IMG/VR virus record: IMGVR_UViG_3300044616_001451
Span: 1 to 37,719 of that record
Direction: 5' to 3' (one strand)
DNA length: 37,719 nt
Source: a virus
The notes beneath the pieces are model-generated. The model saw only the letters and a list, made by a program, of their open reading frames with translations. It was not told the origin of the DNA and made no database searches. This document shows positions 13,724 to 19,062 of this stretch, piece by piece. The number at the start of each line of letters is the position of its first letter. Position 1 is the stretch's first letter. Made by a program: the position numbers and the translations under genes.

Positions 13724-13883
13724 GGCTTTTGTCCTCCTTTTTCCAAAATTGCCTTGTCAACCGACTGTTCCACCTTTTGCTCATACGCCGATAATTCCGT
13801 GATGATCTATTCCGCACAAACCACTTGGTTTCCTTATAGAAATTCTGAATAATCATGATGGCTTTAGTCGGGGGCTTGTTCAT
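13720..13883 (-). pseudogene. frameshifted small gene between two ATGA junctions
   Basis: The start ATG at 13883 overlaps the TGA of the Thg1-like gene; the expected TGA at 13722-13720 overlaps the next ATG. Between them are 164 bases, not a multiple of three. One frame reads MNKPPTKAIMIIQNFYKETK then WFVRN; the other gives TELSAYEQKVEQSVDKAIL then EKGGQKP. A one-base loss (or two-base gain) near 13800-13820 would explain this. Without repair the first frame ends after about 58 residues in basic nonsense (RRMSKRWNSRLTRQFWKK). It could be a real mutation or an assembly error. Confidence 0.65.
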
Positions 13884-14689
13884 GTTTCTGGTTGCCCTTG
13901 GTTAAATATCACGGCCTCTCGGTTTTTTACCTTGGTGAAATTTGGCATATCAATGCGCTCAACAACAAAACGGCTGAATGTTTCTCCGGTTTCCGGTCTG
14001 TTTTCTTTTGGTATGCGTAGAAGCTCCTCGTCGGTCAGAGATTTCTCGGTAACAACCTTGCGAAAAAAACTACCGCGTTTGAAAAACGCAGGATAATCGT
14101 TAAAATTTATTCCTTTTTGAAAAAGCATTTCTTGCATTTCCGAACTGGTTTTGTTTTGAAGTTCGCTGCTTTTGTAATACGCTCTCGCTGCCATACTAAT
14201 AGCATTCTTGGTGGCATCTTTCTCTCGCCAAAGTAGGGTGTTGGCAGCTTCCTCTTTATTGGGGAGTTGAAAAACTCGGCAATCGAACGCTGGGGTATAT
14301 TTAATGGCACGCATACGCATATCCTCCCCGCTTTCAAGGCAGAAAATAGTAAATTTCGCCGACGCCATCCCCGCCAAAACAGAAACTATTTTTTGAATTT
14401 TTCCACCAAAAAACATTTGCGAATAAGGACAGTCTTGTAGCCACAAAAGACTTATCTCATCGGATTGTGTGTACCCGATAATAGCGTTAGTTTCTTTAAT
14501 CAGGTATTTTGTCGTTTCTTGCATTATGGTTGTTATGCGCTGGTCATATGGCCGTTCTAAGCCTCTAGTAAATGTGGAAAATGCCCTTCCATCCAACCTG
14601 GCATAAATAGGTAGTAGCGGCACAAAACGACGGCCAGTCTCAATCCCCTCGTAATTTTTCATTCGGTCGCCAAAGTCGTCTTTACTCAT
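13880..14689 (-). CDS. Thg1-like 3'-5' nucleotidyltransferase
   Basis: This 269-residue protein matches the Thg1 / Thg1-like family, which adds nucleotides to the 5' end of tRNA in the 3'-5' direction. It has YARLDGRAFSTFTRG with metal ligand Asp33, IIGYTQSDEISLLW with Asp77-Glu78, and FDCRVFQLPNKEEA followed by LLWREKDATKNAISMAARAY. The HINNLYN signature of eukaryotic Thg1 is replaced by KNAISMAA-type sequence, as in bacterial and archaeal TLPs that repair truncated tRNAs. Length agrees with the family and catalytic carboxylates are present, so it is probably active. It is in an accessory operon of small unknown genes, with no tRNA gene in the phage. Confidence 0.88.
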   Translation of the reverse strand: MSKDDFGDRMKNYEGIETGRRFVPLLPIYARLDGRAFSTFTRGLERPYDQRITTIMQETTKYLIKETNAIIGYTQSDEISLLWLQDCPYSQMFFGGKIQKIVSVLAGMASAKFTIFCLESGEDMRMRAIKYTPAFDCRVFQLPNKEEAANTLLWREKDATKNAISMAARAYYKSSELQNKTSSEMQEMLFQKGINFNDYPAFFKRGSFFRKVVTEKSLTDEELLRIPKENRPETGETFSRFVVERIDMPNFTKVKNREAVIFNQGQPET

Positions 14690-17378: not shown

Positions 17379-17487
17379 TTCGTGATACCTTCCTCTTCTC
17401 CCTCTTTAGAAAAATATGGGGCAACCCGTCCCGAGGAAGGAAGAATTGGGCTTTCGGCTGGCCTGCCTAGCCCCATGTTGTTGGTAT

Positions 17488-17514: not shown

Positions 17515-17580
17515 TTTGTGACTCGTATTTTGAGTTTTGCAGGACACAAACTATTTTGTGACTCGTGGACGAGACACAAA
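17515..17580. promoter_or_regulatory. palindromic operator cluster
   Basis: TTTGTGACTCGT occurs at 17515-17526 and 17555-17566. The second copy faces ACGAGACACAAA (17569-17580) across two bases, giving a 26-bp dyad with one mismatch pair. The first faces GGACACAAA (17542-17550). A further CCACAAAA lies at 17609-17616. The cluster lies between the leftward replication promoter and the rightward promoter of the structured RNA, so one dimeric regulator could control both. It differs in sequence from the other two operator classes. Confidence 0.75.
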
Positions 17581-17625
17581 CCATATCGAGCATATCCTCG
17601 GAATGGTCCCACAAAATCACATGAT

Positions 17626-17654
17626 TTCCCATCTATGCCCAAATGTGGTATAGT
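17626..17654 (+). promoter_or_regulatory. promoter of the structured RNA
   Basis: TTCCCA (17626-17631), a 17-bp spacer, TATAGT (17649-17654). The -35 matches the consensus at four of six bases. The expected start, about 17660-17661, coincides with the first base of the closing stem of the RNA, which supports both calls. Confidence 0.6.
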
Positions 17655-17659
17655 CAATC

Positions 17660-17760
17660 ATGCTTAGAGGTGAGAAGGCCCTCCTCACGCACCGCCAATC
17701 GGTAAATAACGTAGGAAACTACGCCAAGAGATGCAGGAACCGGGGGCCCTGCCTAAGCAT
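17660..17760 (+). ncRNA. cloverleaf-like structured RNA, possibly C4-like
   Basis: A perfect 8-bp closing stem (ATGCTTAG 17660-17667 with CTAAGCAT 17753-17760) encloses four hairpins: GTGAG/CTCAC (17670-17688), ACCG/CGGT (17691-17703), CGTAG-GAAA-CTACG with a GNRA loop (17710-17723), and GCAGG/CCTGC (17733-17752) stacked directly on the closing stem. GCCC in the first loop (17678-17681) can kiss GGGC in the fourth (17744-17747), like D- and T-loop contact in tRNA. The GNRA loop fits the plus strand. No useful reading frame lies in it. The phage C4 antisense RNAs, which are cloverleaf-like, are the nearest idea, but I cannot confirm it. No T-run terminator follows. Confidence 0.65.
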
Positions 17761-17770
17761 CAATCTAATG

Positions 17771-18130
17771 TTAATCAGGGATTTTATAAGGATTAAAGGG
17801 TTGTAGACCCGTCGGCGCTGGCATGATAACTGGCGTTTCCATTTTTAAATCTTTCAAAAGGACAAACTCTAATCTTTTTTTTATATTTTTTATATCATCA
17901 ATCATTGGCAAAATATCCCCATTATACTCCTTAAGTTTTTCCGAATAGAACATTTCTTTTTTAATGCCGTCTACCTCTAAAAAAGCATAAACCTGAAGCG
18001 CAAAATATGATCCTTCTTTTTCAACAATAGTCCACCCAAACTCACCTTGTTTTAATGGCCTTCCATTTCTTGGCACACCAATGTTGTTCTCAATAAGTTT
18101 TATAATTGAATAATTAAGTTTTATTGTCAT
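17771..18130 (-). CDS. hypothetical protein (119 aa)
   Basis: A soluble alpha/beta protein: MTIKLNYSIIKLIENNIGVP, then FGWTIVEKEGSYFALQVYAF, a Lys/Ile-rich helix and a Pro-rich end (ETPVIMPAPTGLQPFNPYK). It is the last gene of the GapR-like operon and ends 10 bp from the structured RNA, which is read toward it; the RNA would be antisense to this transcript if either reads through. No family recognised. Confidence 0.6.
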   Translation of the reverse strand: MTIKLNYSIIKLIENNIGVPRNGRPLKQGEFGWTIVEKEGSYFALQVYAFLEVDGIKKEMFYSEKLKEYNGDILPMIDDIKNIKKRLEFVLLKDLKMETPVIMPAPTGLQPFNPYKIPD

Positions 18131-18142
18131 AGATAATTCTTT

Positions 18143-18805
18143 CTAATTGCTTTTTATTTCAGCAAGCAATGATTCGTATTGGGTGATCCCTTCCAGGGCT
18201 GGGATACATTTTTTGAGTAGCTGCCGTAGCTTTTCTTCTTCGGTAAAAGGCTGCTCTTCGGGTGTCTTTCTCATTTCAGGATGCTTCACCCAATTTTTAA
18301 AATTTATCCGAGTTTCTCTGTTGGCAAGAGAGCAATCAAGGCCATAGTCCTGATAAGTATAAATATCCTCAAACGTGGCATCATATTGAAAACACTCCGC
18401 GACAAAACCAATGTCGTAAAAGCGTTCGTCATCAGTCATAAAAACACCCGTGTATTTTTCGTCACCGACAAAATACACCGTGTCGATAGATTCATCGGGA
18501 TAATACTTTTGTAGAAATTCAATGATTGTTTGTTTGCACGCTTCATTTAATAAGCATTCACTTCGATATGTTTCATAAACCTTTATTTCCTCAAATTTAT
18601 AGTCGTAATATAAAGATTCCGCAATCAACGCTATACTAAAATACCTATCACTTATATCAAAAATTGTTGTGTTGTTTCCGTATTCCCCTACAAAGCAAAC
18701 ATCATCTATATGTTCTTCAGGATAGTATTTTTCCAAGAATGCAACGACTAGTTTTTCACATGCTTTGTTGTATTTTTCCCATGCTTTGTATGATTTTTCA
18801 CTCAT
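18143..18805 (-). CDS. protein with an internal ~70-residue duplication
   Basis: The start Met at 18805 (MSEKSYKAWEKYNKACEKL) follows GGGGA and overlaps the GapR-like stop in an ATGA; the longer frame to 18862 is inside that gene. The 220-residue protein contains two similar units: KYYPEEHIDDVCFVGEY with YFSIALIAESLYYDYKFEEI, and KYYPDESIDTVYFVGDE with FYDIGFVAECFQYDATFEDI. Each has a helix, a beta hairpin and an acidic helix. A C-terminal segment of charged helix follows. No known family; the acidic repeats suggest a protein-binding role. Confidence 0.7.
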   Translation of the reverse strand: MSEKSYKAWEKYNKACEKLVVAFLEKYYPEEHIDDVCFVGEYGNNTTIFDISDRYFSIALIAESLYYDYKFEEIKVYETYRSECLLNEACKQTIIEFLQKYYPDESIDTVYFVGDEKYTGVFMTDDERFYDIGFVAECFQYDATFEDIYTYQDYGLDCSLANRETRINFKNWVKHPEMRKTPEEQPFTEEEKLRQLLKKCIPALEGITQYESLLAEIKSN

Positions 18806-19062
18806 AACGTCATCCCCGGCAATAAAGGTTGTTGAATCTGGCCCGCATACAATTCCATGCATTCCGATAGCTGTCGCATCTTTTCCCGCTTCTTTTCATC
18901 CGCAGACGCGATCTTCACCAGCTTTTTCATGACAGGTACGTTAAAGCCATCGTCCTTTGCATCGGCGTATATCGTTTTGATGTCCTCGCGCATGGCGTGA
19001 ATCTCTGTCATCAGGTACACAACCTTGTCGATTCTGTCTTTTAGGTCGTTTTGGTCACTCAT
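18802..19062 (-). CDS. GapR/DUF2312-like nucleoid protein
   Basis: This 86-residue protein has LKDRIDKVVYLMTEIHAMRE, then DIKTIYADAKDDGFNVPVMK and KLVKIASADEKKRE, the pattern of GapR (DUF2312), an alphaproteobacterial DNA-binding protein that encloses overtwisted DNA. The C-terminus is longer and different (MELYAGQIQQPLLPGMTL). In a phage it may bind supercoiled or replicating DNA, or interfere with the host GapR. It overlaps both neighbours by 4 bp. It is one of the best host clues, since the family is essentially alphaproteobacterial. Confidence 0.85.
   Translation of the reverse strand: MSDQNDLKDRIDKVVYLMTEIHAMREDIKTIYADAKDDGFNVPVMKKLVKIASADEKKREKMRQLSECMELYAGQIQQPLLPGMTL

Follow-up and report, generated by a model that had tools for sequence, protein, structure and literature searches.

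A skipping-rope RNA in a viral genome

We analyzed a 37,719-nucleotide stretch of viral DNA (positions 1–37,719 of IMG/VR record IMGVR_UViG_3300044616_001451; the whole stretch is referred to as the window), in which a compact structured RNA is preceded by a promoter-like site and faced by a convergent open reading frame (ORF) of 119 amino acids (aa) (Table 1). The RNA is a copy of skipping-rope RNA (Rfam RF02924), and its relatives lie beside genes for BECR-fold nucleases, which indicates a protein partner.

A cmscan search matched positions 17660–17760(+) to the full RF02924 model (positions 1–80) at 52.9 bits, against a gathering cut-off of 36.7 bits (E 5e-10, computed over the whole window). 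The element is thus a member of a known family and not, as an initial annotation made from the sequence alone had proposed, a new class of RNA; skipping-rope RNA reportedly stems from a 2017 survey of 224 candidate structured RNAs. The anatomy given in that annotation was recovered, as the 8-bp closing stem, the four hairpins, and the GNRA tetraloop are all present in the RF02924 alignment, and the suspected kissing of the first and fourth loops corresponds to a 6-bp helix (GCCCUC with GGGGGC) that covaries across relatives. This contact is the pseudoknot already known for RF02924, displayed with covariation support (pk_1) in the Rfam 14 paper. At full length, the window copy shares the sequence, P1–P4 fold, and pseudoknot of the family, to which it adds an insert hairpin in the P3 region, like other proteobacterial phage copies (similar insert hairpins were found in L086, BL57, L008, L026, and L090).

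Table 1. Features of the skipping-rope RNA and its immediate surroundings in the window
Feature	Position	Strand	Basis or remark
Skipping-rope RNA, P1–P4 family fold complete	17660..17760	+	cmscan
P1 closing stem, acceptor-like, 8 bp	17660-17667 with 17753-17760	+	alignment to model
P2 hairpin, D-arm-like, loop 17675-17683	17670..17688	+	alignment to model
Kissing segment GCCCUC, P2 loop	17678..17683	+	sequence, covariation
P3 arm: closing pair 17690-17728, hairpin 17691-17694/17700-17703	17690..17728	+	alignment to model
P3 hairpin	17691-17703	+	
Insert hairpin in P3 region, GAAA (GNRA) loop	17710-17723	+	alignment to model
AGAU linker P3–P4, variable-loop-like	17729..17732	+	AGAT in 29/37 representatives
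P4 hairpin, T-arm-like	17733..17752	+	alignment to model
Kissing segment GGGGGC, P4 loop	17742..17747	+	sequence, covariation
Promoter-like site TTCCCA-17-TATAGT, TG before -10; start predicted 17660	17626..17654	+	consensus match only
Weak terminator-like hairpin and T-run, 52 nt past P1	17812..17845	+	inside 3′ end of convergent ORF
119-aa ORF, convergent with RNA, 10-nt gap	17771..18130	-	same cassette

Covariation and tRNA-like architecture

Relatives were collected by DNA patterns, a structural descriptor, an Rfam-model scan of genomes, and similarity in phage records; structural checks exposed most loci from the initial pattern scan as false matches, which were discarded. The copies were aligned with a covariance model (a MAFFT alignment across all types shifted P4 by one base), and some proteobacterial copies with a P4 insert (L008, L026) escaped the Rfam model. 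Stem covariation, the check that the initial annotation had named, was evident among the 90 aligned copies: standard pairs filled 91.1% of pair cells versus 66.0% in shuffles, the covariation score was 0.602 versus 0.162, and both-sided changes occurred in 23 of 27 pairs, although these counts lean toward the model because the alignment was fitted to P1–P4. By helix, pairing reached 94.9% in P1 (which covaries), 95.9% in P2 (helix 2), and 99.5% in P4 (helix 6). The kissing helix lies outside the model, yet it covaries on its own (0.185 versus 0.087, equaled in 0 of 500 shuffles), and across 37 representatives the cognate P2 and P4 loops fitted each other better than swapped loops did (z 5.8), with none of 20,000 swaps equaling the true fit. 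A covariation between the AG and AGAU linkers, suspected by eye, was not borne out by counts.

The RF02924 consensus has junction linkers of 2/1/4/0 nt (P1–P2, P2–P3, P3–P4, P4–P1) with the P2 and P4 loops in contact, which upholds the tRNA-like outline first noted. The same linker lengths occur in tRNA, where the D-loop/T-loop contact is analogous to that between P2 and P4. A four-way junction with linkers of 2/1/4–5/0 nt and contact between arms 2 and 4 amounts to a tRNA-like architecture, for which the independent source of linker lengths is the Rfam consensus, the junction layout having been imposed in finding many of the 37 representatives. The P1 and P4 stack comprises 13 bp. ARAGORN returned 0 tRNA genes in the window, RF00005 gave no match at E up to 10, and the window RNA has no CCA end; the likeness is therefore one of architecture, not tRNA membership. 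From consensus geometry and loop contact, we infer that skipping-rope RNA is tRNA-shaped.

Skipping-rope RNA is also predicted to be a stand-alone transcript unit. In the window, an extended −10 element (TGgTATAGT, 17646–17654) follows a weak −35 element (TTCCCA, 17626–17631), and the start predicted from the −10 is 17660, where the closing stem begins, as originally proposed (by consensus matching only). Of the 37 representatives, 21 had a −10-like box within the 30 nt immediately upstream (35% expected), and an intrinsic terminator was found no more than 110 nt 3′ in 31 of 37, compared with 8% in shuffles.

Linkage to solo PBECR genes

The RNAs were located independently, before anything was known of a protein, and PBECR3 was searched for afterwards in the same 391 Clostridia genomes. 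A skipping-rope RNA lay directly downstream, on the same strand, of 34 of the 39 PBECR3 hits in ORFs of ≤215 aa, and of 29 of the 31 small-ORF genes above the Pfam cut-off. The order was gene then RNA in all 37 PBECR3–RNA pairings, and zero PBECR3 hits in ORFs of >531 aa (giant polyvalent proteins) were accompanied by the RNA. Across 108 RNA loci, a profile of the neighbor protein matched at 56, comprising 51 upstream on the same strand and 5 convergent. All five convergent loci were of the proteobacterial type, with gaps of 39 (L142), 17 (L144), 14 (L145), 38 (L090), and 36 nt (L039). RNA and protein distances were correlated (Mantel r 0.71, 46 non-redundant pairs, 0/10,000), to which host relatedness may contribute. 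Further BECR-type neighbors were PBECR4 at two loci and a ParE-like protein at one. By this linkage, skipping-rope RNA is the RNA half of a two-component module with a solo PBECR-family nuclease. Our literature search returned no link between PBECR and skipping-rope RNA, and no function or partner for RF02924, although the 2017 survey itself might mention PBECR neighbors.

RNA without PBECR is common in phages, including the window, Caulobacter phages BL57 and CcrBL10, Streptococcus MissC and Javan308, and satellites, whereas a strong solo PBECR3 without a good RNA is rare (2/31). In MissC, the orphan RNA shares 99% identity with a toxin-paired one. In the window record, we found no PBECR2 or PBECR3 domain and no match to the neighbor profile, so that its RNA looks like an orphan copy without a PBECR partner; the toxin-paired RNAs nearest to it include those of the proteobacterial loci L090 and L142.

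PBECR4, a further nuclease family, shows the same partner layout: its genes at L181:1582–2166(−) and L190:949–1482(+) precede a skipping-rope RNA by 4 and 19 nt, respectively.

Predicted fold of the partner protein

A model of the partner protein from L079 (pLDDT 91) had as its best structural match the nuclease domain of colicin D (1tfo, Z 6.8, rmsd 2.9, 85 residues), the closest solved fold and a suggestive match only; BrnT and RelE-family toxins came next, and colicin E5 ranked lower (Z 4.2). This ranking is consistent with the Pfam assignment and with the excerpted text of Iyer et al. (PMC5512222), which describes an active site like that of colicin D, notes that phages carry solo PBECR genes, presents the targets of solo PBECR RNases as debated, and, within that excerpt, names no RNA partner for PBECR. 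A possibly catalytic His is conserved in the partner proteins, in agreement with the active-site description there. PBECR3 is a predicted BECR-fold RNase, for which the model suggests a resemblance to colicin D.

Distribution and genomic settings

In a scan of 1,071 drawn genomes from three groups with the Rfam model, RF02924 was present in 51 of 391 Clostridia, 20 of 295 Lactobacillales, and 5 of 385 Alphaproteobacteria (2 of these 5 above the cut-off). Settings varied among phages: in Streptococcus phages, the RNA is located after the lysis genes, close to the attachment end, and two satellite phages carry it, while in Caulobacter phages BL57 and CcrBL10 it sits within a tRNA array, with P1 beginning 3 nt past the CCA of tRNA-Gly, and in L026 no gap separates it from a tRNA CCA. 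A BLAST search of a phage collection with two Clostridia-type RNAs gave no match, and a plasmid search gave short terminator-like matches only. One Clostridia genome carries skipping-rope RNAs as a tandem triplet (L199:7956–8281). An unannotated stretch (L002:4156–4260), 74–80% conserved in giant phages of Caulobacter and Brevundimonas and located in or near tRNA arrays, is possibly another RNA.

A candidate RNA antitoxin and its alternatives

We favor, with moderate confidence, a tRNA-shaped RNA antitoxin for solo PBECR, with the window copy an orphan decoy, as the best explanation overall. At the family level, skipping-rope RNA is probably the antitoxin of solo PBECR nucleases: the P1/P4 and P2/P3 arms, with the P2–P4 loop kiss as the elbow, would give the RNA the shape of tRNA, and through this mimicry it could bind the PBECR nuclease and hold it inactive. 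The family could quite possibly, in a judgment falling just short of even, represent a widespread undescribed class of protein–RNA toxin-antitoxin systems with colicin D-like PBECR, with orphan phage antidotes across several host phyla, some of them in tRNA arrays. More tentatively, the window copy, having no PBECR of its own, might act as a decoy that shields the phage by neutralizing nucleases of the host or of resident prophages, as pseudo-ToxI does against ToxIN. The strong linkage gives RF02924 a testable function and solo PBECR RNases a likely antidote; if the antitoxin reading is true, type III-like toxin-antitoxin biology would extend to a new toxin fold, and orphan skipping-rope copies would constitute a general phage counter-defense.

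Type III systems (ToxIN, CptIN, TenpIN, AbiQ, and, as a recent relative, AbiF-RCd22) likewise join a small endoRNase gene to a structured RNA gene, and an orphan RNA in a phage has a precedent there in pseudo-ToxI, a phage-borne RNA countering ToxIN (PMC3475682). The abiF RNA, a motif from the same 2017 survey, is a demonstrated antitoxin (PMC12373285). In skipping-rope loci, a toxin gene adjoins the RNA across the family, not in the window, and the partners are PBECR2/3/4, of predicted BECR fold, rather than ToxN-type nucleases (ToxN, AbiQ, CptN, or TenpN). Layout differs as well, since type III RNAs are repeat arrays upstream of the toxin, whereas skipping-rope RNA is a single compact unit (with one triple array) that has its own promoter-like site and lies downstream of, or convergent with, its partner. 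A CptN gene beside the L135 RNA was dropped as evidence for type III because it has its own repeats: L135:1605–2189(−) encodes a CptIN-family toxin (NCBIfam NF047359) accompanied by two 46-nt repeats, 27 nt upstream of the skipping-rope RNA.

Colicin D cuts tRNA, and its immunity protein has been described as tRNA-mimicking; that antidote is a protein, whereas the one proposed for PBECR is an RNA.

Several observations weigh against the antitoxin reading. About half of the RNA loci have no recognizable PBECR neighbor, G497 has PBECR3 without the RNA, and G678 has PBECR3 with a decayed RNA copy. Co-inheritance or a regulatory role would likewise account for linkage and correlated distances, and Z-scores like that of the colicin D match are also reached by common arrangements. 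In the window, the ORF convergent with the RNA is not recognizably PBECR; the terminator, besides being weak, lies at an unusual distance of 52 nt compared with that in relatives (0–28 nt after P1, mostly 0–19 nt). The predicted minimum-energy fold of the window RNA differs from the family fold. Of the checks suggested for both strands, cmscan identified RF02924, but the folding energy was weak on the plus strand (z −1.96) and better on the minus strand (z −3.5); the covariance model, together with the terminators 3′ of the plus-sense RNA in relatives, decides for the plus strand. Lastly, PBECR toxicity, and binding and rescue by the RNA, are predictions.

An alternative that we consider unlikely, if worth weighing, is a two-gene module of the RNA and the convergent 119-aa ORF, with the ORF product as a new protein partner that has replaced PBECR in this phage group. 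The window has both, five related phages have neither, L263 retains the ORF next to a leftover 3′ part of the RNA, and the short-gap convergent layout matches that of the proteobacterial PBECR loci. The L263 protein (38% identical) is the sole homolog found, and its ORF is intact despite the truncated RNA, with no second skipping-rope copy in the L263 contig; the ORF is therefore unlikely to be a toxin requiring this RNA. As a PBECR candidate, the 119-aa ORF was rejected, as Pfam, PHROGs, PADLOC, NCBIfam, and the neighbor profile all gave no match. Its single-sequence model was poor (pLDDT 59), and fold matches to it are meaningless.

The PBECR nuclease could instead use the RNA as its cofactor, guide, or activator, as in CRISPR-like or retron systems, and neither the tight linkage nor the correlated distances tell an inhibitor from a cofactor. 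This seems improbable to us, as many orphan RNAs and few orphan solo nucleases form the pattern of an antidote, and as no guide-like segment is free, both large loops being held in the kiss.

A slimmer chance attaches to a tRNA decoy or tRNA-pathway factor unrelated to PBECR, such as a substrate or inhibitor of RNase P or of a tRNA enzyme. The tRNA-like linkers, the sites in tRNA arrays of Caulobacter and other phages, and a Thg1-like enzyme in the window (see below) would suit such a role, but it leaves the PBECR linkage unexplained, and the RNA has neither a CCA end nor a tRNA model match.

Antisense action on phage mRNA, C4-like or otherwise, to which the short cloverleaf-like form shared with C4 RNA of P1, P7, and P4 and the site beside a regulatory region had pointed, is highly improbable and was rejected, given the RF02924 match, no C4 match at E up to 10, loops sequestered by the covarying kiss, no antisense target or signal found, complementarity of the window RNA to window ORF starts within ~1 standard deviation of shuffles, and RNA pairing to toxin mRNAs that did not favor cognate over swapped partners (z −1.3). 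Accordingly, what stands of the regulatory, stand-alone RNA of the initial annotation is its structure and its own promoter-like site, and what falls is the new class and the C4-like, antisense identity.

Other features of the window

A Thg1-like tRNA-His guanylyltransferase, an enzyme of tRNA end-repair type, is encoded at 13880–14689(−) (Pfam PF04446, E 2.5e-30), and a GapR-like DNA-binding protein (PF10073) at 18802–19062(−) indicates an alphaproteobacterial host. At 17400–17477(−), there is a sub-threshold match to the int-alpA RNA (RF02996; 32.7 bits versus a cut-off of 35.8), in which a leader-like hairpin ends in a T-run ~20 nt upstream of a DUF1376-like ORF. Related phages L261–L267 share this conserved sequence. 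Repeats of the type ttgtgactcgt / acgagacacaa, possibly operators, lie between both RNAs (17515–17590). The ORFs at the two ends of the contig (1–478 and 36598–37719) share NVLQRYDTTVGG...LLAFNLVDG; this overlap of the ends makes a circular or circularly permuted genome probable.
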